A stretch of DNA of 28,175 nt from a virus, in IMG/VR virus record IMGVR_UViG_3300024520_000394, positions 1-28,175 of that record; one strand, written 5' to 3'. A program made the position numbers and the translations under genes. Shown here piece by piece: positions 1 to 10,708 of the stretch. Positions within the stretch are counted from its first letter, which is position 1, and the number at the start of each line of letters is the position of its first letter. The notes beneath the pieces were generated by a model that saw only the letters and a program-made list of their open reading frames with translations, had not been told where the DNA came from and made no database searches.

Positions 1-551
1 ACATCAGATGGCGCGATCTCTACGTTTGCAGTAGCTGAGGTTTCTAATTCGTATTTTTCGATGCCGTTAATTGAACCGTCTCCGGTTCCTGGTTTTATCG
101 TGACAAGGTTCGGTTGCAACAAATGGATTTCGTCTATCCGTGCATTTGGCCCACCAACCCCTGCCCGTTTAAAATATAAATAGGCATTACCAAATATTAA
201 TAACTGTTCTGTTATGTTTTCAATTAAATCAACAGTTGTCCAATCTGGATTCGGTTGCCGTAAAAGTTGACCAAGCGGACCGTCAAAATCTTCATATTCA
301 CCGCTAGGGGTTGCGACAACTGCGTTGAATTCAATACTTGAGACACTGGTAGCAAGCTCTCTAATGCAAGAATAAACGACGGGGTTTTGTGCTATCGTAT
401 CCGCGTAATATGCCAAACCTGCGTCTTGGGTATTTTCTGAATAATTGTCTGTCAGTGATTCAGAACCTAGCGCAACAGTTAGCGCCAAGTTTTGCGCTTT
501 CTCTTCCTTGTTTAATTCCTTAGATCGGAACGGCCAAAAACGGTTAGCCAT
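1..551 (-). CDS. Phage portal protein, HK97 type (N-terminal part, cut by window edge)
   Basis: Portal proteins form the dodecameric ring at the capsid vertex through which DNA is packaged and to which the tail attaches. The first 183 codons are present; the 3' end runs off the left edge. The ATG at 551 follows a good ribosome site (GGAGATAT). Portal-like motifs are visible: NPVVYSCIRELATSVS at residues 56-71, LLRQPNPDWTTVDLIENI at 96-113, GNAYLYFKR at 121-129 and LQPNLVTIKP at 145-154. This matches the N-terminal half of HK97-family portals, which usually exceed 400 residues. It reads away from the plus-strand early genes and would join the structural operon at the right end of the window if the genome is circular. 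Identity is confident from the motif order. Confidence 0.9.
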   Translation of the reverse strand, partial: MANRFWPFRSKELNKEEKAQNLALTVALGSESLTDNYSENTQDAGLAYYADTIAQNPVVYSCIRELATSVSSIEFNAVVATPSGEYEDFDGPLGQLLRQPNPDWTTVDLIENITEQLLIFGNAYLYFKRAGVGGPNARIDEIHLLQPNLVTIKPGTGDGSINGIEKYELETSATANVEIAPSD

Positions 552-646
552 ATATCTCCAAAACGCCAAGCAGTCATAAAGTATCATAGAAAGCATTAAA
601 AAAATACAAATTAGATACCGTTATTATCTTATTTTACTTTTAGGGG

Positions 647-675
647 TTTACAATTAGTTGCTTTGGGTGTACTAT
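647..675 (+). promoter_or_regulatory. Sigma70-like promoter for the left early genes
   Basis: TTTACA (647-652), a 17-nt spacer and TACTAT (670-675), about 30 nt before the first ATG at 706. The -35 lies in the decamer GGGGTTTACA, which recurs ahead of the genes starting at 9308 (-) and 10865 (+). The transcript would start near 682, leaving a short leader with an AAGGAG site. Confidence 0.65.
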
Positions 676-705
676 TGCTTTAGCAAGTTAAGGAGCTAGA
701 AAAAA

Positions 706-1065
706 ATGAGCGTTACAGAATACAACCGATATCAAGCAGATATCAGAAAAGCAGAAAGAGAAGAAGAAGCAGCAGCAGCAGAAAGAAAAGCGGATAAAAT
801 CGAAAGAACAAAGAATGCCGCAATTACTGCATACCTTGCAAAAGTTGGAAAATCAACAAGTGAGACAATAGAGTGGAACCTAAGTACGGTAATAGTAACC
901 AGTGCCGGCGAACCTGTTTACTATGAGGATTTTGAAAAGTACGTAAGACGGGCAGATTATTCTTTAGCCCATTTAGATGATTATCCAAGCCATAAAGAGT
1001 ACTACGCCGCTTATAGTGCAGCAAGAGAAAAAATGGACGAATTAAATATACCGTTCACAATCTAA
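706..1065 (+). CDS. Hypothetical early protein with charged N-terminal helix (119 aa)
   Basis: First gene of the left plus-strand operon, with an AAGGAG site ending about 10 nt before the ATG and a clear promoter upstream. Residues 10-40 are very rich in Glu, Lys, Arg and Ala (EREEEAAAAERKADK), predicting a long charged helix or coiled coil. The rest is a small tyrosine-rich globular part (YYEDFEKYVRRADYS, HKEYYAAYS). I recognise no family, no catalytic motif, no signal peptide and no membrane segment. Its position directly behind an early-type promoter suggests a host-takeover or regulatory role, but that is inference only. Confidence 0.75.
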   Translation: MSVTEYNRYQADIRKAEREEEAAAAERKADKIERTKNAAITAYLAKVGKSTSETIEWNLSTVIVTSAGEPVYYEDFEKYVRRADYSLAHLDDYPSHKEYYAAYSAAREKMDELNIPFTI

Positions 1066-1077
1066 GGAAATAAAAAA

Positions 1078-1536
1078 ATGGAAACAGAAATTCAACCAAA
1101 ATTACATTACAAAACAACAGAAGTGGCAGAGTTACTCAACTGTTCAACCCGTCACGTTACAAATTTAATGAGGGCTGGAAAGCTGAAGTACTGGAAAGAT
1201 GGTACCTACAACAAGGTACCCGCTGTAGAATTAGAGAGATACATAGAAGAAGGTTACCAACGCGCCACAGAAAGGCGGGAGGGAAACCTTTGTACTCATC
1301 GAATGGAAGATGGCGATCTATGTTCTAACTATGTCGCTAGTGAAGACCTTTGTTACACACACAGTAAAGAGAAAGATGACATGAGCGATCCAATTGGAAG
1401 AACATCAGAACAATATACAGAAAGGGAAAAATACAGCGAGTTGCTCATAGTTTTATATAAACTAGGGGAAACAATTCAGGCAACAATTGATGATATCGAA
1501 GAAATTAAAAGAGAGGAATTCCAAGATGCAAACTAA
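1078..1536 (+). CDS. Excisionase-like winged HTH protein with Cys/His knuckle (152 aa)
   Basis: Residues 10-60 match the MerR/excisionase-type helix-turn-helix used to bind DNA (YKTTEVAELLNCSTRHVTNL, then a VPAVELERYIEEG helix). Residues about 72-96 hold a small putative zinc knuckle, CTH-x7-C-x9-C-x2-H, of the short G-x-C...C-x-x-H kind common in actinobacterial and phage proteins. The C-terminal third is helical and acidic. It follows the 119-aa gene by 12 nt with an AAGGAA site and overlaps the next gene, so it belongs to the same operon. Likely a DNA-binding regulator of early transcription or replication. No integrase partner is seen next to it, so a true excisionase role is doubtful. 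Confidence 0.8.
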   Translation: METEIQPKLHYKTTEVAELLNCSTRHVTNLMRAGKLKYWKDGTYNKVPAVELERYIEEGYQRATERREGNLCTHRMEDGDLCSNYVASEDLCYTHSKEKDDMSDPIGRTSEQYTEREKYSELLIVLYKLGETIQATIDDIEEIKREEFQDAN

Positions 1537-1888
1537 AACATGTAAGCAACGAGTTGACGCACACTGGATAAGTAGAAAAAAGGATCTAATTGAATTTATA
1601 GAATCCGAGAATTACGAAGGTTTAGACGAATACTTTTTAGAGGCAGCAGAAGTTGAAGCTATCCCGGCAGTAAGTCCTAAGGGTTTGCATTTACAACACG
1701 CACCATTTAAAAAGCTTTTGATCTCCTGGGGTGGTCCTAGTGAAGAAATCCGGTTCTATGAAGATGGAATCGCCGAATTCGTTTTGTTGGATTGGGGGGA
1801 TAAAGCCGAAATTGAGATCGCACCAAAAGGCGATCTAGGTGATGATCTAATTGCTCATTTCTTGCGAGACTATTTTTTCGATGTTTAG
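1526..1888 (+). CDS. Hypothetical acidic protein (120 aa)
   Basis: Start chosen at ATG 1526 (MQTKTCKQR) because GAGAGGAA lies upstream; a more upstream in-frame ATG at 1487 would lie deep inside the preceding gene. The start overlaps the end of the HTH gene by 11 nt. The protein is acidic and compact, with a beta-rich second half (KLLISWGGPSEEIRFYEDG, AEFVLLDWGDKAEIEIAP). I do not recognise the family. Its size, acidity and position are compatible with a small phage inhibitor or DNA-mimic protein, but nothing in the sequence proves this. It overlaps the lysozyme-like gene by 8 nt (ATGTTTAG). Confidence 0.7.
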   Translation: MQTKTCKQRVDAHWISRKKDLIEFIESENYEGLDEYFLEAAEVEAIPAVSPKGLHLQHAPFKKLLISWGGPSEEIRFYEDGIAEFVLLDWGDKAEIEIAPKGDLGDDLIAHFLRDYFFDV

Positions 1889-2252
1889 TTTTTTCTTCTC
1901 TCTCCTTGTGGTTGCTGGTATTGGCATCTATAGCAGCAACCACGCACCCCTTACAGAACAACAAGCGCGATCCGTACTATATCTAGCAGGATGGCCAGAA
2001 GGGGTTCACAAGCAAGCCTTAAGCGTAATGTCGTGTGAATCTAGTTTAATAACAGATCGGATCGGTGATAGCGGAGACAGTTTAGGATTGTTTCAGATTC
2101 AATGGACACCTAAAACCTGGATGGGGTGGAAATACTACAAACCACTAGAACACCTAAAAAACAAAAACATAATTGGTCCGCTTGTTAATGCACGCGTAGC
2201 GCTAATTATTTATCAAGAATACGGGTGGACACCTTGGGTGTGCAAACCTTAA
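1881..2252 (+). CDS. Membrane-anchored lysozyme/transglycosylase-like protein (123 aa)
   Basis: The chosen start is ATG 1881, overlapping the previous stop by 8 nt. Residues 1-20 are strongly hydrophobic (MFSFFFSLLVVAGIGIYSS), a signal peptide or signal anchor. The mature part has the lysozyme-like transglycosylase pattern: a Glu in MSCESSL, probably catalytic, followed by DSGDSLGLFQIQW, the Gly-Leu-Phe-Gln-Ile signature seen in SLT and related families, then aromatic-rich residues. The domain is small, about 100 residues. It could help degrade peptidoglycan at lysis, or stay at the membrane and act during superinfection or entry. It is the last gene of this operon and converges on the modification operon; no clear terminator is visible in the 35-nt gap. 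Confidence 0.75.
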   Translation: MFSFFFSLLVVAGIGIYSSNHAPLTEQQARSVLYLAGWPEGVHKQALSVMSCESSLITDRIGDSGDSLGLFQIQWTPKTWMGWKYYKPLEHLKNKNIIGPLVNARVALIIYQEYGWTPWVCKP

Positions 2253-2287
2253 ACTGTCCCAGAGAACCAGTAGCCGACCGTTCACCT

Positions 2288-2764
2288 TTACTCATCTTTT
2301 GTTGGTAACTCCACCACTCGGCTGCTGGCTCTTTCAATACTGAATGTCATCTCTTTATCGGCTACAGTAATTGAACGCTGATCAATATTAATTAAAGGTT
2401 GATCCGGAATAACCCCATTAATTGCAGAGACGCGATCCAAGACTTTTAATAAAAATTCGCCATGTTTTAAATCCGGTTCTATCCTGTTGCCGCTAGCATC
2501 TACATATCCAATTGCCTTTGACCAATATGCCTGAACAAGATGCGTCAAACGTTCGTTTTGCAGCGCGCGAACCTTGTCAGCGGCATCGCTATTTTCACGC
2601 GCTAAAACGTCTAAAAGTTTGCGCGTTTCCTGGGACACATATTGTTGCGAAACTCCAAGAACTTCGGCGATCCTTTTTTGGCTGGTTCCTGCTTTTGCAG
2701 CTTGTAACAATTCAAACCTACGAACGTCTGCCTTTGCTGTTGTTTCACCTTTTCGCGGACTCAT
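2288..2764 (-). CDS. HTH protein, small-terminase-like (158 aa)
   Basis: Residues 15-55 form a resolvase/LuxR-like helix-turn-helix ([20 protein letters not shown] then [15 protein letters not shown]). A helical middle region follows, then [19 protein letters not shown] at about 98-116, which resembles the oligomerisation segment of phage small terminases. These bind the packaging site and regulate the large terminase. It is the last gene of the modification operon and overlaps the folE fusion by 4 nt (ATGA). A transcriptional regulator of the operon is the main alternative. No other small terminase candidate is visible near the large terminase at 15187, which favours the packaging role slightly. 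Confidence 0.65.
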
Positions 2765-3591
2765 CTAACTGCCTCGAAAAATTCCGATCGCGCGCTGGGT
2801 TCAGTGCGAAAACAACCAGTCAAATAATTTGTGACCAATGCGTTCTCCTGTTGCGCTACACCCCTTGCCATTGTGCATAAATGCGCGGCTTCCACATGAA
2901 CCGCAACCCCGTTGACAAATGGTTCTAACAGTTCACCAATTTGTCTTGTCATTCTCTCCTGAATTTGTAAGCGTCGCGCGTAACAATTAACGATTCGCGA
3001 AAATTTAGAAAGTCCCAAGACTTTTCCCCTGGGAACATAACCCACAGAAACATGACCATAAAAAGGTAGAATATGATGTTCACAAGTCGAATAAAATTTA
3101 ATTCTTTTGTTTATTATCATTTCGTCAGTATCATCTTCAAACCATTTCAAAAAATGATCGGGGTTTGTTCTGTAACCTTCAAACAATGTGTCCCAAGATT
3201 TAACCACTCGCGCGGGGGTTTCTGCGATTCCCTCACGAAGTGGGTCATCGCCAATATATTCAATCATACGTAAAACACTATCAGATATGTCCTGTTCGCT
3301 TTCCTCTTCCCAAGGGAACCGCACCCACTCCGCGATCTTTTCTTTTTTCTTATCTACCAAAGCGATCACGGGTAATTCATACATTGCCTTAATTTTGCTT
3401 GCTGTTTTCCCGCTATCAATAATGTCATCCAGTGCTATATCTGCAACCTTTGGATCTGATACTACAATAGCGCCAAACCTACGCGCTAGACCACTTACAA
3501 TAGCCCCTCCGCGTGGTATACCCCACACCTTAACCCCAGCCAGTGACAAATCTTTTAATCGTGCATCAACTTCGTCCCAACCAATGTCCAC
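2761..3591 (-). CDS. folE: Phosphoribosyltransferase-GTP cyclohydrolase I fusion (276 aa)
   Basis: Two domains. Residues 1-95 are a purine-type phosphoribosyltransferase: [13 protein letters not shown], the PRPP loop [13 protein letters not shown] (51-63) and the terminal W-x-x-FPWE (89-95) typical of Gpt/Hpt-like enzymes. Residues about 100-276 are GTP cyclohydrolase I (FolE), which turns GTP into dihydroneopterin triphosphate, the first step to queuosine precursors. Zinc ligands are Cys170 and His173 ([10 protein letters not shown]) and Cys239 (HLCTMARGV). The start is GTG 3591, which shares a base with the queE stop (TAGTG) and has GGGGTGGA upstream. The FolE half is complete for a bacterial-type enzyme. 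What the fused PRTase does is unknown: base salvage, or channelling of GTP or a deazaguanine, are guesses. Confidence 0.92.
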
Positions 3592-4217
3592 TATTCCACC
3601 CCTAGAAACTTATGCACTTGTGGGCTTAATTTCCAATCTGGTAATTCGTAAAGTTTTTTAATTGTTGCTTGCGTGATACGTTCATTTTTTTCTTTATCTT
3701 CATAATCAATTGGTTGTAAGAATTTACTGGCTGCTTTTATGTGTTCAAAATTTTCTGGTCTAATTTCTGGGTTCGGGTGTGGATATAACAGTTTCAAGCT
3801 ATCGCATTCTAAAACAACGATCTGATCTGCTGGTAATTTTGGACTCATGGTAAGGTGATCAACTTTTACGTTAATTGGTTTGGTTCCGTTTGTTTCAATT
3901 GCTACCTTGTAATTATAGCGCTGTAACGTGTTCACAAGCTCACTATCAAGCTGTAACGCCGGCTCCCCTCCTGAGATAGTAACCCAGTTCACTTTGCCTA
4001 GCTTGCGCAATCCTTTAACGATTTCTAAAGCTGTCATTTTTGTACCCTTTAGAAAATCCGTATCACAGAATGGGCATAATGAATCCGCGCGAGTTTCTGG
4101 TCTTCCGTCCCACATATTGCAACCAGATAACCGAATAAAATGACAAACGGTTCCGGTCATTGCTCCTTCACCTTGAAGGGTAGGACCGAACAAGTTATGG
4201 ACAGTATATTTTCGCAC
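3591..4217 (-). CDS. queE: 7-carboxy-7-deazaguanine synthase QueE, radical SAM (208 aa)
   Basis: QueE converts 6-carboxytetrahydropterin to 7-carboxy-7-deazaguanine using SAM, Mg2+ and a [4Fe-4S] cluster. Seen here: [10 protein letters not shown] at residues 9-18, the family N-terminal signature; cluster cysteines 33, 48 and 51 in a C-x14-C-x2-C spacing (LSGCNMW ... CPFCDTDF), a known variant of the usual C-x3-C-x2-[13 protein letters not shown], the GGE SAM-binding motif; and VAIETNGT. Start: the GTG at 4217 gives [13 protein letters not shown] and fits the family best. A TTG at 4244 would add nine residues and overlap queD by 50 nt without a ribosome site. Lies between queD and the folE fusion with overlaps on both sides. 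Confidence 0.93.
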
Positions 4218-4647
4218 TAGCTTTGTCTGTTTCGTATAGTTCAAGGGATATCAACTTAACTCCAGGTGGTAGTGTCAATGTCAGATTATCTTTGCTGTGC
4301 CATTCCATTTTTTTTTGGTGAATTCTCTTTATAAAATCGCTGCACAACGCCTCCGCTGTGGGATCGTAGGGAAACGCTACGTAACCAAACCCCCCCCTAA
4401 ACCGATCGTCAGATTCGTTAAAGTAAAACTTGTGGTCCATTTCTTCAACTAGCGGAACTATGTGGCGATCTAATTCGTGAAAGTTAACCACCATATCGGT
4501 GTCAGGGTTTGCTTCTTCATTCTTCCTCGCTACCTCAACAATTAAACGATAATTATGACCGTGTGGCGAATAGCACTTGTCCTCTTTTCCAACCTTGAAA
4601 AGTGCGTGACCCATTTCCCAGGTGTATGTCTTTTTTATCGTGAGCAT
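4195..4647 (-). CDS. queD: 6-carboxy-5,6,7,8-tetrahydropterin synthase QueD (150 aa)
   Basis: QueD converts dihydroneopterin triphosphate to 6-carboxytetrahydropterin, the second step of preQ0 synthesis. Zinc ligands His14 (MGHALF), His29 and His31 (CYSPHGHNY) and catalytic Cys25 are all present. NFHELDRHIVPLVEEMDHK at 55-73 and PTAEAL complete the family pattern; [13 protein letters not shown] near the C-terminus carries the conserved Glu. Start chosen at ATG 4647, which has AAAGG upstream; a TTG 15 nt earlier would lie inside the end of the methyltransferase gene. Two nt separate it from that gene and it overlaps queE. Length is slightly above the usual 120-150. Confidence 0.95.
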   Translation of the reverse strand: MLTIKKTYTWEMGHALFKVGKEDKCYSPHGHNYRLIVEVARKNEEANPDTDMVVNFHELDRHIVPLVEEMDHKFYFNESDDRFRGGFGYVAFPYDPTAEALCSDFIKRIHQKKMEWHSKDNLTLTLPPGVKLISLELYETDKASAKIYCP

Positions 4648-4648
4648 T

Positions 4649-5287
4649 CTATATCCTTTCAACTACTATTAAATAATCTAAAACCGGATCGCGCCACCCT
4701 AAATCCCAAGTACCGGAACCGTTTGCCTTAATTGAAAACACTTGGAACACATCAGAACACAAGCGCGCGATCATTTCCCTGACCTGTATTTCGTACAATT
4801 CGCGTGTGTGGTGTGGGTTGTTTCTTCCTACAAAAAAATTAGTCAAAGGATAGAACCGCATAAAATCGGGATCGGGGGTTGATAAAATCATACGGTGTCG
4901 TGTGCGTTTCCAGGTTTCATAAAGTAGAACGTCTTGAAATGCGGGATCTACGTGTTCTATTATTTCAAGCAAAAAAGTCGTATCAAACAATTCGTCATTG
5001 TTTTCAAAATAGTCTTCTATGGTGCTAGCGTGGGAATCTTCACGGATAATGTCCCCGCTTAATTCTGTATCAACCGCAACATAACGGGTTGCATACTCTT
5101 TGACTAATTCGTGAATACCTTGGTCATCTGCACCAATGTCTAAAAATGTATTACCAGCAGAAAGCGCAACCGCTAGAGATAACCTACGCCCCGTCCATGC
5201 ATTAAAATCTAACCATTCCTTTTTGTTGTGGGTAGCGTTGAATTCATTGGCTGATGAACTGGGACGCTCACCTGATAACTTAGCCAT
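4649..5287 (-). CDS. Class I SAM-dependent methyltransferase in the deazaguanine operon (212 aa)
   Basis: Motif I is NTFLDIGADDQG at residues 47-58, followed by an acidic end of strand 2 (VAVDTE), the FDTTFLLEIIEHVDP block at 101-115 typical of methyltransferase type 11/12 proteins, and MILSTPDPD. No DNA-methylase motif such as DPPY, NPPY or PCQ is visible, so small-molecule or modified-base methylation is more likely than classic N6A/N4C/5C methylation. Start ATG 5287 overlaps the queC stop by 8 nt. It sits inside the preQ0 operon between queC and queD, so a tailoring role on the 7-deazaguanine is plausible. It does not obviously match a family I know as a dPreQ1 methylase, and no QueF is seen to make preQ1. 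Confidence 0.85.
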   Translation of the reverse strand: MAKLSGERPSSSANEFNATHNKKEWLDFNAWTGRRLSLAVALSAGNTFLDIGADDQGIHELVKEYATRYVAVDTELSGDIIREDSHASTIEDYFENNDELFDTTFLLEIIEHVDPAFQDVLLYETWKRTRHRMILSTPDPDFMRFYPLTNFFVGRNNPHHTRELYEIQVREMIARLCSDVFQVFSIKANGSGTWDLGWRDPVLDYLIVVERI

Positions 5288-6056
5288 TCTTTTTTCTTGC
5301 TTTCTTATTTGCAGCATAGGCATAATAATTATTTTTAATCATAGGTAACCAGTAAGTTATTGGCTTCCTTGACAATCCCTTTATCCACTTTCTTACGTTG
5401 GCTTTGTTAACCTTTACAATTTCAAGCTCCCAGGGGTTCACTTCGTAACGTTCTTCTATTCCGTTGTAGTACAGTGCTGCCCACCTTCGATAACAAGACC
5501 AGCAAACACCGCAACCCTTAAAGCCTTTTTTAATTTTCTCCCTGTAGCAAGCAGTCGTTGACTTTAGTGCTTCTAGGTCTTCCGGTGTACTGAACTCTTT
5601 TAAGTATTTTTGTATTAATTGCGCTTTGTATAAGTGATGATAAGGAGCAACACAGACGACTTTTCTCTCCAGACAGAGCGACATCACCTTAGACATTAAC
5701 CATCTGAACCACCGACTTTTGTCGGTGCTACCCTCACCCTTTAACGCGTTTAGGTATATTTTGATCGGTTCGTTTTCTTCCGTTTGATCCACTGAATAAT
5801 TAACCTGAGAGAGTGCGCCAATCATAAAGAAAAAGGCATTACGTAAGGGAACCCAACCGGAAGCCGTTTCGACATCCGCTAAATCAATACGTTTATCAAT
5901 TGTAATTAGTTCTTTAGGGTGCAACTTGTAGAGTTGCTTAATTTCCCGCTTTGCATATTCGTGCCCCGCATCAATATAAAGAATTGGAGGCTCACCAAGT
6001 AATCGCCAACTCATATAAGAATCCATACCACCGGTGTATAACATCACTTCACGCAT
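5280..6056 (-). CDS. queC: 7-cyano-7-deazaguanine (preQ0) synthase QueC-like (258 aa)
   Basis: QueC uses ATP and ammonia to convert 7-carboxy-7-deazaguanine to preQ0. The PP-loop ATP motif LYTGGMDS is at residues 6-13, VPLRNAFF follows at about 69-76, and the zinc cluster is Cys170, Cys182, Cys185 and Cys188 (C-x11-C-x2-C-x2-C, with GCGVCWSCYRRW). The usual S-GG-[LM]-DS loop has Thr in place of the first Ser. Start chosen at ATG 6056 (MREVMLY), overlapping the upstream gene by 8 nt with GGA upstream; the longer reading adds 17 hydrophobic residues not seen in the family. It is slightly longer than typical QueC, with a basic C-terminal tail. Confidence 0.9.
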   Translation of the reverse strand: MREVMLYTGGMDSYMSWRLLGEPPILYIDAGHEYAKREIKQLYKLHPKELITIDKRIDLADVETASGWVPLRNAFFFMIGALSQVNYSVDQTEENEPIKIYLNALKGEGSTDKSRWFRWLMSKVMSLCLERKVVCVAPYHHLYKAQLIQKYLKEFSTPEDLEALKSTTACYREKIKKGFKGCGVCWSCYRRWAALYYNGIEERYEVNPWELEIVKVNKANVRKWIKGLSRKPITYWLPMIKNNYYAYAANKKARKKNG

Positions 6057-6375
6057 TAGTTCCGTCCCCTTTGTGTGTAAAATAATCAGCCAATAAATGA
6101 CTAGCATACCCTAGCACGAAACCCTGCCGGAAGTATACCCCTAACCCTATTACAATTAGCAACCAAAGCACTTGGTGCCTTCTTTTCCCGATCCTAAGGT
6201 GCAGCAAATCATGCCACCTAATTACAGGATGCGAACGGGGTAGCCATTCCTTTTTGTTAATAACTCCTAGCAACATAATGTCAGGAACTACTGCACCCGC
6301 TACAGTTGGGAGCAAATCGGATCCCAGGGTGAGAGAAACGAACCCACCGATTAAAGCATGTTCAAATGTATTCAT
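6049..6375 (-). CDS. Small membrane metal-dependent hydrolase-like protein, YdjM/DUF457-like (108 aa)
   Basis: Two or three hydrophobic segments: residues 8-38 (ALIGGFVSLTLG ... VVPDIMLLGVI) and 70-95 (WLLIVIGLGVYF ... GYASHLLADYF). The residues between carry the conserved polar motifs of YdjM-type membrane hydrolases: HALIGG at the N-terminus, PDI, RSHPVIRWHDLLH at 47-59 and SHLLADYFTH at 91-100, probably a metal site. The family is usually 150-200 residues, so this is a short form. It overlaps dpdA by 14 nt and queC by 8 nt, so it is co-translated with the modification genes. Its function here is unknown. Action on a deazaguanine nitrile, on host lipids or in exclusion are all only guesses. 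Confidence 0.7.
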   Translation of the reverse strand: MNTFEHALIGGFVSLTLGSDLLPTVAGAVVPDIMLLGVINKKEWLPRSHPVIRWHDLLHLRIGKRRHQVLWLLIVIGLGVYFRQGFVLGYASHLLADYFTHKGDGTNA

Positions 6376-7258
6376 TTATATGTTTCCCGTGTATTAAGCC
6401 ATGTAAAATATCGTAATCTGGAAGGATATTAGCCGAATCTTCCGCGAAAAACATATTGACCCCGACGTGTTTTCTCATATCTTCTTGGTAAAGCCATTGT
6501 GAATATAGCGATAAAATCAGCCGTGGTTTTAGTTTTGTACCTTTCCACGCTTCCAATTTTGCGAAGTGATACGGATCAAACCCTAGTTGCCTAATACGTT
6601 TTAGAATCTTCTGTGGTGGTTTCTTCTTGAAAGTATCCCGATCAATTGCTACAAATTCACCCCTACCCATATACAAATGAACCCTGCCGAACTTTCTAGC
6701 GGTTAAATGATTAGTACAATCTGTCGAATACGGTTTTAAGTTCGTGATCCTTCGTGCATCACCCAACCCTAAACAATGATACTTTCGCCCTGCTATGTAT
6801 GGCTGTAGGTTCTTAATGTATGTAGCTATATGACTACCCCCCTGAACCCCTGAGATACCCCCTAGCGCGATTACATCAGAAACCTTGTAGAGTTCTTCTA
6901 TCTCTTCCGGTTCGTGCCCTCTTGTATAAATTGGTATCGGTTCTAATCCCGCTTTTAGCATCTTGTAAAGGTTCTTTCTTGTTTCTTCAGGATTTCCGAT
7001 TACATCTAATTGGAAATACCCCCAAGGTTTAACCGGTAATCCCTTAATAAAATCGATGTACTGTTCGACGCCAAACCTTTGATGCTTTTGATGATATGTG
7101 TACGCTCCTGAATCTATTAATATGCTCACCTCTTGGGGGTGCTTTTCAGAAAACGAAAAAATTTCAGGGGTTATGTATGGATGTGCTACTAGGATTCGTA
7201 GCGGGAGAATTTCACCCCTACTAGATGCTTGGCTCTCCCCTATGAGAGCACTGGTCAC
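6362..7258 (-). CDS. dpdA: DpdA-like DNA 7-deazaguanine transglycosylase (298 aa)
   Basis: DpdA enzymes are tRNA-guanine-transglycosylase relatives that exchange guanine in DNA for preQ0 or a derivative. The TIM-barrel signatures are visible: ILIDSGAYTYH at residues 46-56 with Asp49 as the likely active-site acid, GYFQLDVIGNPEETRKN at 80-96 with Asp85, PIPIYTRG at 107-114, VIALGGISG at 129-137 and a late CLGLGDARRI. The start is GTG 7258 with AAAGGAGC five nt upstream, overlapping the ParB-like stop by 4 nt. The short size resembles phage DpdA rather than the longer bacterial form. No zinc-binding TGT C-terminus is evident. With a complete preQ0 pathway downstream, a DNA-modifying role is far more likely than tRNA modification. 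Confidence 0.88.
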   Translation of the reverse strand: MTSALIGESQASSRGEILPLRILVAHPYITPEIFSFSEKHPQEVSILIDSGAYTYHQKHQRFGVEQYIDFIKGLPVKPWGYFQLDVIGNPEETRKNLYKMLKAGLEPIPIYTRGHEPEEIEELYKVSDVIALGGISGVQGGSHIATYIKNLQPYIAGRKYHCLGLGDARRITNLKPYSTDCTNHLTARKFGRVHLYMGRGEFVAIDRDTFKKKPPQKILKRIRQLGFDPYHFAKLEAWKGTKLKPRLILSLYSQWLYQEDMRKHVGVNMFFAEDSANILPDYDILHGLIHGKHINEYI

Positions 7259-7842
7259 ATACGCTCCTTTACCCTACCGTCAAGGTGTAGCAGTTCCACA
7301 CCTTCCAACCCCTTTAGCGCTTCCGTTACTTTGTTGTTTACTTCTTCCCCTTTTTCCATTGGGTAACGAATGCGCAGTACCTCAAGTACTGCATCACCTT
7401 CCGTATCTTTAAACGTGTAATCGTCAGCTATATCGGTTACCCAATCGGTTGGGGATATATCGCGCAACAGATCGCGCAACTGTTCGCTTTCGATATCCAT
7501 GCCATCTATCAATTCGCTAAGCATGTAGTCATCTGTTCCCGCCATTGCTGAGAGTGGATCAAACGTTGCTAGTAGCTTATCCGCTTCCGCTTCTGTTACA
7601 TCCAGCACCAGCACCGGTACAACTTCGTCCGGTGTAGTTTCTGCACGTAAATGCCCGTTGATTATCTCCAACCCTTTGGGGGTTTCGCGCACTATTAGCG
7701 CATCAGCGTATCCCACTTCTTCAAGTATTCCGCGTAATGCTGCTTGTTGTTCGGGTGGATGAGTGCGCCAGTTCTTTGGGTTGGGTATTAGTTCGGAAGC
7801 TGCAACCCGTTTAAATTCTCTGATTCTATCCCTGGTTCGCAT
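7255..7842 (-). CDS. ParB/sulfiredoxin-fold protein, probable DpdA partner (195 aa)
   Basis: Residues 10-100 have the ParB N-terminal/Srx-like nuclease fold pattern: SELIPNPKNWRTHP, QQAALRGILEEVGYADALIV, then GLEIINGHLRAET, whose G-H-L-R block is the phosphate-binding signature, and VPVLVLDVTEAEADKLLATFD. The C-terminal third is acidic and helical. Start taken as ATG 7842 because a candidate -10 lies at 7890-7895, too near for a GTG at 7881 to be used. It is the first gene of the operon and overlaps dpdA by 4 nt. Bacterial Dpd systems also pair DpdA with a ParB/Srx-like DpdB, so a helper role in base insertion is a good inference. A general phage ParB-like nuclease is the alternative. Confidence 0.82.
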   Translation of the reverse strand: MRTRDRIREFKRVAASELIPNPKNWRTHPPEQQAALRGILEEVGYADALIVRETPKGLEIINGHLRAETTPDEVVPVLVLDVTEAEADKLLATFDPLSAMAGTDDYMLSELIDGMDIESEQLRDLLRDISPTDWVTDIADDYTFKDTEGDAVLEVLRIRYPMEKGEEVNNKVTEALKGLEGVELLHLDGRVKERM

Positions 7843-7889
7843 CCTACTACCTACAAGAACAAGATAGCCAAACCTTAGCACTTCGCAAC

Positions 7890-7918
7890 ACTATAACGCA
7901 ACAAGCTAACAACAATAA
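7890..7918 (-). promoter_or_regulatory. Candidate promoter of the deazaguanine operon
   Basis: On the minus strand, TATAGT (7895-7890) lies 17 nt after TTATTG (7918-7913). The -10 fits well and the -35 is weak. Transcription would start near 7883, giving a leader of about 40 nt to the ATG at 7842. Regulation from a further upstream start inside the structured region is also possible. Confidence 0.4.
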
Positions 7919-8033
7919 GTTATACGTGCTGTAATAAAAAGAAAGCACGTAATAGATACGTAACCTATCTATTTATCTTAAAGGGTATCTATATAATGCT
8001 GTTGGAACGTTTAGCTTATCCAACAGTATACCC

Positions 8034-8064
8034 TTGACAAATCAAAATACAAGAGGGTTAACAT
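8034..8064 (+). promoter_or_regulatory. Possible promoter inside the structured region
   Basis: A perfect -35 TTGACA at 8034-8039 with only a weak -10 (TAACAT at 8059-8064, spacer 19). If used, it would give a plus-strand RNA of about 300 nt ending at the hairpin with a T-run at 8326-8368. A seven-codon frame (MANFVCC) starts at 8124 behind AGGATAAG and could be a leader peptide or chance. Confidence 0.3.
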
Positions 8065-8325
8065 TTAGATAATGAAGACATAATACATATTGTAAACATT
8101 AATCAATACCAGGATAAGAATCATGGCAAACTTTGTATGTTGTTAATTATATCGCGCTTAGAGAACTGGAAGCCAACACTAAGGGGTTGGAATCAGTTAA
8201 ACAATGGTAAAAAAAGCAAAGGCCGCGAGCAGTAATGTATAAAACGACAACACACCAGCAGTGCGGCCAATACTAGGTGGAGAACCTAAGTTTAATTCTA
8301 GCACTGACAGTACTGCAAAGATAGG

Positions 8326-8368
8326 GGGACTGCGCTAGATATGTGGGGTTTTGCGCAGTCCCTTTTAT
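8326..8368 (+). terminator. Rho-independent-type terminator
   Basis: A perfect 10-bp stem, GGGACTGCGC (8326-8335) with GCGCAGTCCC (8353-8362), a 17-nt loop and then TTTTAT on the plus strand. No plus-strand gene lies upstream in this gap, so it would end a non-coding transcript. The loop is longer than usual, which lowers confidence. Confidence 0.5.
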
Positions 8369-8492
8369 AGTGTAAGGGTTTAGGCTGCTAATAGTTATAT
8401 TAGATTTGAATGTATGTCTAAACCCTTGTAGATATGGGGGTTGGTGGGGTATGTATGAGCGGCATACCATTACAAAGGAGCGAGCACCAACC

Positions 8493-9044
8493 CTAGTCAA
8501 CTGTATAGTAACCCAGGATATTAGGCCATTCGTTACCCTGTACAGCTTCCATAACATCACGCTTAAACTGTGGGTGTAGTGCGTGGGTATCCTTGTTAAA
8601 CGCTTCCACTAAGAAGAACTGGCTTTTGTAATGTATCCCATCTTTTACGGAATCATTAGTATGTGGTGGGTTCCGCTGTTTCCATTTGTTATAGTTCTTG
8701 TGTATCGCTATTGTAGGAAGCCACAACATTTTACCCCACTTGGATTTATAAAAGATAACCACATCAGATCTGCACACTTCACCCCATCCAGGAATAGTGA
8801 CAACTCCTTCGTTAATGCTTCCTATAGATTCAATGGCAATGTTTTCCGTATCATAGAAGTCAGTTTTATACTCGGCATAATAAAACTTGTCGGGTGTTCC
8901 GAACACCCTATCAATTGCCTCACTATCCGGTAGAACGTCCAGCTCTGGATCGTTGTAGTAACTTGATAAGTGGGTGCTTATCCACTTATCAATAACACCT
9001 TCGCCATCTTTTCCGCGTTTAGCATCTGTATAGAAGTTACTCAT
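8493..9044 (-). CDS. Putative PD-(D/E)XK-type endonuclease (183 aa)
   Basis: Residues 10-20 (GKDGEGVIDKWI) look like the first helix with its Glu. A variable segment leads to RVFGTPDKFYYAEYKTDFYD at about 46-65, which has the PD-x(n)-ExK arrangement (PDKFYYAEYK) of restriction-like nuclease folds. The rest has mixed strands and helices with several Trp residues and no membrane segment. It follows the 80-aa gene by about 20 nt with AGGGG upstream of the ATG. Such phage enzymes cut host DNA, process recombination intermediates or serve as structure-specific nucleases. Its exact family is not clear to me. The final stem-loop of the structured region overlaps its stop codon. Confidence 0.6.
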   Translation of the reverse strand: MSNFYTDAKRGKDGEGVIDKWISTHLSSYYNDPELDVLPDSEAIDRVFGTPDKFYYAEYKTDFYDTENIAIESIGSINEGVVTIPGWGEVCRSDVVIFYKSKWGKMLWLPTIAIHKNYNKWKQRNPPHTNDSVKDGIHYKSQFFLVEAFNKDTHALHPQFKRDVMEAVQGNEWPNILGYYTVD

Positions 9045-9065
9045 AACTAACTACCCCTTTTAACC

Positions 9066-9308
9066 TTAACGCATCCAACTAGGACCACCTCGTCCGTTTG
9101 CTTGGTTGTGCTTCTTATTTCGTGAGAAGAACGCATCTTCCTCTGCGCGTTCTGCTTCTTTCCATGCTTTCCTTGCGCTTTTTCTTTTTGCGCGTTCTGC
9201 TTGGTTTCGTGCGTTCCATTCACTAGCCGATTCTTTAGATGAATCAAATTCGCCGTTAAACTTCGCTTTCCGTTCTTCTTCTGCTTGCTTCATCTCTGTT
9301 GCGTTCAT
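9066..9308 (-). CDS. Small highly charged helical protein (80 aa)
   Basis: Almost the whole protein is Glu, Lys, Arg, Ala and Asn (EMKQAEEERKAKFNGEF, AERAKRKSARKAWKEAERAE), a predicted long charged helix ending in a Gly/Trp tail (GRGGPSWMR). It is the first gene behind a promoter at 9341-9370, with GGGAG about 10 nt before the ATG. A second frame on the same strand covers part of this region but has no start signal and is less plausible. No family is recognised; it may bind nucleic acid or be a structural or host-interaction factor. Confidence 0.65.
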   Translation of the reverse strand: MNATEMKQAEEERKAKFNGEFDSSKESASEWNARNQAERAKRKSARKAWKEAERAEEDAFFSRNKKHNQANGRGGPSWMR

Positions 9309-9328
9309 TTCTCTGTTCTCCCGTTCCT

Positions 9329-9370
9329 TACTGTATACACAGTATATAACAGAATGCGGTTAACTGTAAA
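9329..9370 (-). promoter_or_regulatory. Promoter with overlapping palindromic operator
   Basis: On the minus strand TTTACA (9370-9365), an 18-nt spacer and TATACT (9346-9341) precede the ATG at 9308. The -35 is inside GGGGTTTACA, shared with the promoters at 647 and 10815. At 9329-9344 the dyad TACTGT-N4-ACAGTA overlaps the -10 end, a likely repressor site. Its half-sites equal those of E. coli-type LexA boxes, but the spacing is shorter. Confidence 0.6.
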
Positions 9371-9393
9371 CCCCTATTTACTAAATAACTATA

Positions 9394-10347
9394 CTATTTG
9401 CCAAATTGGTTGTTATTTATAAAAACGCTTTTAAGTTCTTTGATTGTTCCTAAGGCATCCCGTAATAATCTACGCGCTGCAAAGAGTAGCGGAGGCACTG
9501 CAACCATCACGGTAATTAAAACTTCAATATCTATGTTCACACCTAGCGAATTAATCAATGCCATAATTCCACCAGTTCCACCGGTTGCGCCGATCTCTGG
9601 GATCGCTTTCTTCATGGTTCGCGTACCCTGCACTAATGAAACCGATCCGGCTTGGGGTTGCGGGGTGGGTGTAGGGGTAACACCCGTTACACCCGTTACA
9701 CCCGTTACATTAGACGTCAATATCGGTCGTGGTGGTGGTGGTGGGGGGGTAGGTCTTTCAATCGGTGGCGCAGCTTCTGCACGTACACCAGCACCAACTA
9801 CACCAGTTGGCGGAATCCAAACGTCTTGATCCCCTTCGCTTAACGCTTGGAATGTTACTACACGTTTTAAGAAATCATCCCAAAGGTCACCCTCAAGGAT
9901 TCGGGTCGGACAATTTTTTCCTGACCAAAACTGGTGCGGCACTGTACCCATAAAACCATGACCCTGTTCGTTTAACTCTGCTACTAACTCAGCAGCACGG
10001 TCACGAGTTTTTGAGAAATCAGATCCGTCATTTACGCACAATTCAATTCCAATCGACGTAGTGTTCCCAGGTCCACCACCATCACCGGCATGCCAACCTT
10101 GTTCTTCAGTTTGCAAACTTTGGAAAATTTCAGTCTGATCCACCGTGAAATGCCAACTTTTTTGTGTGGGGTTTCCGTTCGCATCTGGGCATCCCTGGTA
10201 CATATAGCTGGCATGTGCTTCGGCATCGGCAGTTGGTGCAGTGTTGCCGGTTTCATGGATCGTCACATATGCTGCTTTTCCATTGGCAAATAATTCGTTA
10301 GGTCTGTTCTCTGTTCTCTGGACTAATCGTTGTTCGATATTCGTCAT
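9394..10347 (-). CDS. N-acetylmuramoyl-L-alanine amidase endolysin with C-terminal membrane segment (317 aa)
   Basis: Residues 20-165 are an Amidase_2 (PGRP-like) domain that cleaves the MurNAc-L-Ala bond of peptidoglycan. Likely zinc ligands are His31 (VTIHETGN), His138 (VPHQF) and Cys146 (KNCPTR); SWHFTVDQTE and GWHAGDGGGPGN are further conserved blocks. Residues 190-235 form a low-complexity linker with a run of prolines and three GVT repeats. Residues about 272-292 (IDIEVLITVMVAVPPLLFAA) are a strong membrane helix followed by positive charges. A membrane-tethered endolysin is unusual; it may combine export or holin-like behaviour with the enzyme. The ATG at 10347 overlaps the resolvase-like gene by 50 nt. 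Family call is confident; the role of the tail is inference. Confidence 0.9.
   Translation of the reverse strand: MTNIEQRLVQRTENRPNELFANGKAAYVTIHETGNTAPTADAEAHASYMYQGCPDANGNPTQKSWHFTVDQTEIFQSLQTEEQGWHAGDGGGPGNTTSIGIELCVNDGSDFSKTRDRAAELVAELNEQGHGFMGTVPHQFWSGKNCPTRILEGDLWDDFLKRVVTFQALSEGDQDVWIPPTGVVGAGVRAEAAPPIERPTPPPPPPRPILTSNVTGVTGVTGVTPTPTPQPQAGSVSLVQGTRTMKKAIPEIGATGGTGGIMALINSLGVNIDIEVLITVMVAVPPLLFAARRLLRDALGTIKELKSVFINNNQFGK
9681..9707. repeat. Three 9-bp tandem repeats in the endolysin linker
   Basis: CACCCGTTA is repeated three times in a row. It encodes the GVT triplets in the linker of the amidase, so the copy number is probably variable by slippage. Confidence 0.85.
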
Positions 10348-10708
10348 CCTCTGCCACTGCTCCTGTTAAATTACAAAAATCTTCACGACTTAAAATACAA
10401 TAACGCAAATTGGGGTGACCGGCTGGGGTTCTTACTTCCAAACCTAAAACAGGAACCGATCCAAATTCCGCTTTGGCTACTGCTTCTTCATAAAGTGCAA
10501 TACTTGGTCGAACTCTGCTTTTGACTTCTATATCAAAAATAAGACCTGATTTCATGCTTTCAAAACGTAGATCGCTTTGCCTCTTACCTGCACCCGCAAT
10601 TGCGTCTAACCTACGCGTACCAAAACGTTTTGCCCATTCACGTTCGATGTCTTTAGAACGTGATTTGTTAAGCCGTCCTCTTTTTACGTTTGCGGGATCT
10701 GGTTCCAT
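10298..10708 (-). CDS. Holliday-junction-resolvase-like nuclease (136 aa)
   Basis: The pattern resembles archaeal-type Hjc and phage resolvases of the PD-(D/E)XK fold: KSRSKDIEREWAKRFGTRR at residues 15-33 with Glu in the first helix, GAGKRQSDLRFE at 39-50 with Asp46, and IFDIEVKSR at 57-65 with the E-V-K metal motif. These enzymes resolve four-way junctions before packaging. It is the first gene of the minus-strand lysis/nuclease group and overlaps the amidase gene. The C-terminus is acidic. Restriction-like nucleases of other families cannot be excluded. Confidence 0.75.
   Translation of the reverse strand: MEPDPANVKRGRLNKSRSKDIEREWAKRFGTRRLDAIAGAGKRQSDLRFESMKSGLIFDIEVKSRVRPSIALYEEAVAKAEFGSVPVLGLEVRTPAGHPNLRYCILSREDFCNLTGAVAEDDEYRTTISPENREQT

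Follow-up and report, generated by a model that had tools for sequence, protein, structure and literature searches.

A hairpin-rich non-coding region heads a phage ParB–deazaguanine operon and may serve as its control region

Introduction

What purpose is served by a long non-coding gap, crowded with hairpins, in a phage genome? The window analysed here, a 28 175-nt marine phage sequence (IMG/VR record IMGVR_UViG_3300024520_000394), contains such a gap immediately before an operon that encodes a ParB-like protein, deazaguanine enzymes and a small terminase-like protein. An earlier sequence-only reading had put forward a large structured RNA, a leader of the operon, perhaps ligand-sensing, or a replication origin. 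Our analysis of folding, homologues and related phages points to a control region as the most likely identity of the gap, ahead of a new standalone RNA gene.

Results

Extent and content of the gap

Alignment with relatives (alignment A2) moved the start of ORF 7255–7881 to 7842, and this defines the gap as 7843–8492 (Table 1). Between 7882 and 8492 no convincing gene was found, as this interval contained only ORFs of 20–57 aa and one 95-aa GTG ORF overlapping its neighbour. The gap is the longest between annotated-size ORFs in the window, is flanked by two co-oriented minus-strand genes and immediately precedes the conserved ParB start. No tRNA was found. Purines are enriched on the plus strand of the gap, as they are on the coding strand of the phage's genes, and GC skew across the window mostly tracks the gene strand. 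Iteron-like repeats in the gap were not significant, with 7- and 8-mers repeated no more than in shuffles, and neither were repeated operator motifs; TAGATA occurs six times, a count equalled in 5 of 100 shuffles. AAGGGT was considered as a binding motif and rejected, since its 23 occurrences in the window (15 expected) are not specific to the gap.

Table 1. Features of the gap and its neighbouring genes
Feature	Position	Strand	Description
Upstream gene	8493–9044	−	No family match
Non-coding hairpin-rich region	7843–8492	−	Between the stop of gene 8493–9044 and the ParB-like start codon
H1	8438–8493		Arms 8438–8446/8485–8493, GGGTTGGTG/CACCAACCC; inner stem 8448–8453/8463–8468
H2	8374–8427		Perfect 10-bp outer stem AAGGGTTTAG/CTAAACCCTT; inner CTAATA/TATTAG (8388–8393/8398–8403)
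H3	8326–8362		Perfect 10-bp stem GGGACTGCGC/GCGCAGTCCC; 17-nt loop; followed by TTTTATAG on the plus strand
H5	8210–8268	−	GGCCGC/GCGGCC stem (8221–8226/8263–8268), long loop, followed by TTTGCTTTTTTT on the minus strand
H6	8164–8198		AACTG/CAGTT around CCAAC/GTTGG
Weak promoter-like site	8069–8096	−	TTTACA-N16-CATTAT; the ParB operon transcript may start here
H7	7981–8035		Outer 8-bp stem AAGGGTAT/ATACCCTT; inner CTGTTGGA/TCCAACAG (7999–8006/8019–8026)
H8	7951–7973		AATAGATA/TATCTATT
H9	7923–7951		TACGTGCT/AGCACGTA, 13-nt loop; final stem, about 80 nt before the ParB start
ParB-like gene	7255–7842	−	Opens the downstream operon; ORF 7255–7881, conserved start 7842
Rest of downstream operon	2288–7258	−	tRNA-guanine-transglycosylase-like (DpdA-like), QueC, QueD, QueE, FolE, TerS-like HTH protein

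Folding and inverted repeats

The 570 nt from 7924 to 8493 fold with z scores of −3.85 on the plus strand and −5.16 on the minus strand against dinucleotide shuffles, and none of 100 shuffles folded as well on either strand. When the whole window was divided into 150-nt tiles, tile 8326–8475 ranked first with both strands combined (z −4.84/−7.59), and a 140-nt minus-strand tile at offset 70 (about 7913–8052) reached z −6.0. Perfect, non-overlapping inverted repeats of at least 8 bp number six in the gap, compared to a shuffle mean of 0.42, a count matched in none of 300 shuffles. This structure is distributed over two clusters (approximately 7923–8035 and 8164–8493) rather than one continuous fold, as tiles from 8026 to about 8250 fold approximately like shuffled sequence, and the stems, nine or more of them distinct in about 570 nt, form separate hairpins and not a single architecture.

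Much of the sequence-only reading is upheld by these data. The ORF listing confirms that this is the longest gap and free of genes, with coordinates and anatomy correctly given; gene order places it directly upstream of an operon with deazaguanine genes, as stated; and folding with shuffled controls supports structure beyond chance on both strands. Two of its claims need amending. The excess of hairpins in what it called a nested block is real, whereas the single large block resolves into two clusters with an ordinary middle; and its perfect 10-bp stem with a plus-strand T-run exists, but is one of two perfect 10-bp stems (8326–8335/8353–8362 and 8374–8383/8418–8427).

Transcription signals in and around the gap

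A terminator scan of 7200–9400 returned 4 sites, compared to 1.9 in shuffles. T-runs follow H5 (minus strand) and H3 (plus strand). H1 abuts the stop codon of gene 8493–9044. The U-run that follows H5 on the minus strand makes this hairpin a possible terminator of the upstream minus-strand genes, although its long loop kept it out of the strict scan's list, and H3 is weakly terminator-like on the plus strand. Promoter-like sites around the gap were no more frequent than in shuffles, and the minus strand of the gap contained neither a strong promoter nor a strict terminator above shuffle level. Matching sigma-70-like sites of the form TTTACA-N16-18-TAYWMT, with N17/18 spacers, were seen at 647–675 (plus strand, before gene 706) and 9341–9370 (minus strand, before gene 9308). 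Two such good sites compare with 0.12 expected, whereas the gap holds only the weaker version at 8096–8069.

Searches for known families and homologues

No Rfam family matched the window at gathering threshold, and at E values up to 5 the search of 7850–8560 against Rfam 15 gave only two chance-level matches, none of them to preQ1, ROOL or GOLLD. The sequence-only reading had seen no preQ1 or preQ0 motif, which agrees with the lack of matches to RF00522, RF01054 and RF02680 at E up to 5. Two of its functional suggestions fared less well: a large standalone RNA of the ROOL or GOLLD kind is not supported, as no noteworthy Rfam match appeared even with E values up to 5, and neither is a preQ0-sensing leader, given the absence of a preQ1-class match and the presence of similar blocks in relatives without detectable FolE, QueE or QueD.

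The gap was found in a single other contig (L002/L102, IMG/VR 3300024518_003952), where it is 100 % identical. This contig is 99.88 % identical to window positions 1–8576 over 8576 nt and reaches 192 nt further left. A DNA search of phage records and stem-pattern scans of IMG/VR revealed no homologue of the gap. In IMG/VR the upstream gene and the DpdA-like gene have homologues only in the identical contig; FolE and ParB homologues lead to relatives, none of which shows sequence similarity to the gap. A TerL scan of GTDB genomes reached diverse hosts (Planctomycetota, Chloroflexi, Alphaproteobacteria and others) and no near relative, and literature searches found no report of such hairpin blocks. 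The exact stem of H3 recurs in an otherwise unrelated marine phage in IMG/VR (L211:1245–1284, also L213), where the L211 copy lies just downstream of a major-capsid-like gene, and stems of the H2 type occur elsewhere in unrelated phages as ordinary bidirectional terminators in the same pattern scan. These matches share no context with the gap.

Neighbouring genes

Only by eye does the protein encoded at 8493–9044 show a charged motif like that of PD-(D/E)XK nucleases, and its structure model was uninformative (pLDDT 36). Upstream of this gene lie a small gene, an amidase gene and a gene with a weak match to a Holliday junction resolvase family (10298–10708; PHROG 2002, E 0.002). RusA homologues were absent from the window by tblastn, and the 10298–10708 product may replace RusA in this phage. 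FolE (GTP cyclohydrolase I), encoded at 2761–3591, is extended at its N terminus by approximately 100 residues, in which a phosphoribosyltransferase-like motif was noted by eye; in relatives, L103 among them, the alignment covers this apparent fusion from end to end.

Hairpin blocks in related phages

Relatives identified in IMG/VR through the ParB-like protein have the module order ParB-...-TerS-TerL in common, and some also encode FolE, QueE and QueD. Their strongly structured stretches lie mostly 450–900 nt upstream of ParB, directly before the gene that precedes it. This gene is RusA-like, as 16 of 19 members matched a PHROG RusA family and the best PDB match of an AlphaFold2 model (pLDDT 89) was Escherichia coli RusA (E 1.3e-05). 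The 140 nt before the RusA-like gene had a mean z of −4.31 and fell below −3 in 21 of 24 loci, which are non-identical but not all independent, some being 65–95 % identical upstream. By the same measure, no stretch fell below −3 before TerL (0/18) or before ParB (0/20; 0/38 together).

In the relatives the strongest hairpin precedes the start codon by about 20–60 nt, which is where a leader would lie. The blocks (L005, L049, L050, L059 and others) contain several hairpins, often with repeated short dyads, and in several a GC-rich hairpin with a U-run follows just after the preceding gene. Pairing in the leader hairpin is preserved by two-sided changes in two subfamilies, and the pair L015/L028 differs by a C-G to T-A change in one stem; the relatives' module is headed by a block that covaries and is as structured as the gap. 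In RNAalifold, long stems were not aligned in a mixed set of 13 leader hairpins, whereas a subfamily of 7 was aligned; in alignment A5 one fragment duplicates L013, and counts rest on six rows. Sense and antisense folding were equal (12 of 24, with a mean difference of 0.08). A primase/helicase homologue is often present 2–5 kb upstream.

The best predictor of these blocks was the head of the RusA-ParB-terminase module and not the deazaguanine genes. The window gap likewise is a non-coding block directly upstream of the first gene of its module (ParB, compared to RusA then ParB in the relatives) and, like the relatives' blocks, is significantly structured against shuffles. However, no RusA lies immediately downstream of it, and it has no sequence in common with the relatives' blocks, so homology is not established; the parallel is one of position and character.

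Discussion

Our preferred interpretation, to which we give about an even chance, is that the gap is a hairpin-rich control region heading the minus-strand ParB-DpdA-Que/FolE-TerS operon. Upstream-gene transcripts, from the promoter-like site at 9370–9341, would run into H1 to H6 as terminator-like or processing hairpins. The ParB operon transcript, whether initiated within the gap or continuing from upstream, would have H7 to H9 as its structured leader ahead of the ParB start codon. An action of the hairpins in RNA, their division into those that terminate, process or stabilize the message, and the site of transcription start are points that we infer. The position of the main hairpin in the relatives, 20–60 nt before a start codon, supports a leader.

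Both strands fold equally well in the relatives, and RNA is therefore not favoured over DNA. The foremost alternative, which we regard as unlikely, is a DNA-level element, in which the inverted repeats would form cruciforms or single-strand folds marking an origin, a recombination site or a packaging-linked site, handled by the resolvase that the relatives encode alongside. The stems are almost all perfect Watson–Crick, the module leads to the terminase, and the RusA-like gene adjoining the relatives' blocks keeps this alternative alive, as does the primase/helicase homologue often found upstream. However, the relatives' main hairpin keeps its leader position, the window lacks RusA, the gap has no significant iterons and GC skew mostly follows gene direction. 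Furthermore, the loops span 12–39 nt, a length unusual for extruding cruciforms.

A new standalone structured RNA on either strand ranks next and is also improbable. It would account for the strong folding, the purine-rich plus strand would suit a plus-strand transcript, and H3 would provide a weak terminator for it; however, there is no Rfam match, homologue or convincing promoter, the middle is unstructured, and the stems form individual hairpins, not a single architecture. ROOL and GOLLD RNAs are, like the gap, long, structured, phage-borne and non-coding, but the gap lacks a single compact architecture, an Rfam 15 covariance match and homologues.

We consider it very unlikely that the gap is neutral, a collection of palindromes with no function today that would be decayed operators or terminators or the remains of a mobile element. 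Its sequence is not conserved and is known from a single phage, and the recurrence of H2-type stems as ordinary terminators would fit such an origin, whereas the positionally recurrent blocks and compensatory changes in the relatives argue for selection in the group; the gap is probably functional. Least probable of all is a preQ0/preQ1-type ligand-sensing leader of the deazaguanine operon: QueC, QueD, QueE and FolE do lie downstream, where preQ1 riboswitches would be expected, and the H7 segment ATACCCTTG (8028–8036) could pair with AAGGGTAT at 7981 or CAAGAGGGT at 8050 as a possible switch, but none of preQ1-I, -II or -III was matched, relatives without detectable deazaguanine genes carry similar blocks and the first downstream gene is ParB-like.

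A control region at the head of the operon compares best with phage operon 5′ leaders and intergenic hairpins, such as mRNA-stabilizing 5′ stem-loops, which it resembles in its position before a first gene, its strong simple hairpins and the terminator-like elements after the preceding gene. It differs in the number of its hairpins within so short a span and in belonging to no sequence family. With the RusA-upstream blocks of the relatives it shares a place at the head of a ParB-TerS-TerL module, the order of the z scores and several hairpins in a row, but not the repeated dyads GTTAAC, GTTGAC and CGCAAC seen in several of them. A bolder proposal, which we hold only tentatively and think improbable, is that a marine phage group keeps a fast-evolving, strand-symmetric hairpin array at the head of its resolvase-ParB-terminase module. 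The array would serve either at the DNA level, as an origin or a recombination or packaging-linked site, or as a structured leader of a new class, and the window gap would be a RusA-less variant of it.

In summary, these comparisons shift the focus from a single orphan sequence to a feature that recurs in a phage group. Such blocks are easily missed by sequence search, and the group keeps one, strongly folded and changing rapidly, at a fixed location beside a Holliday junction resolvase gene.
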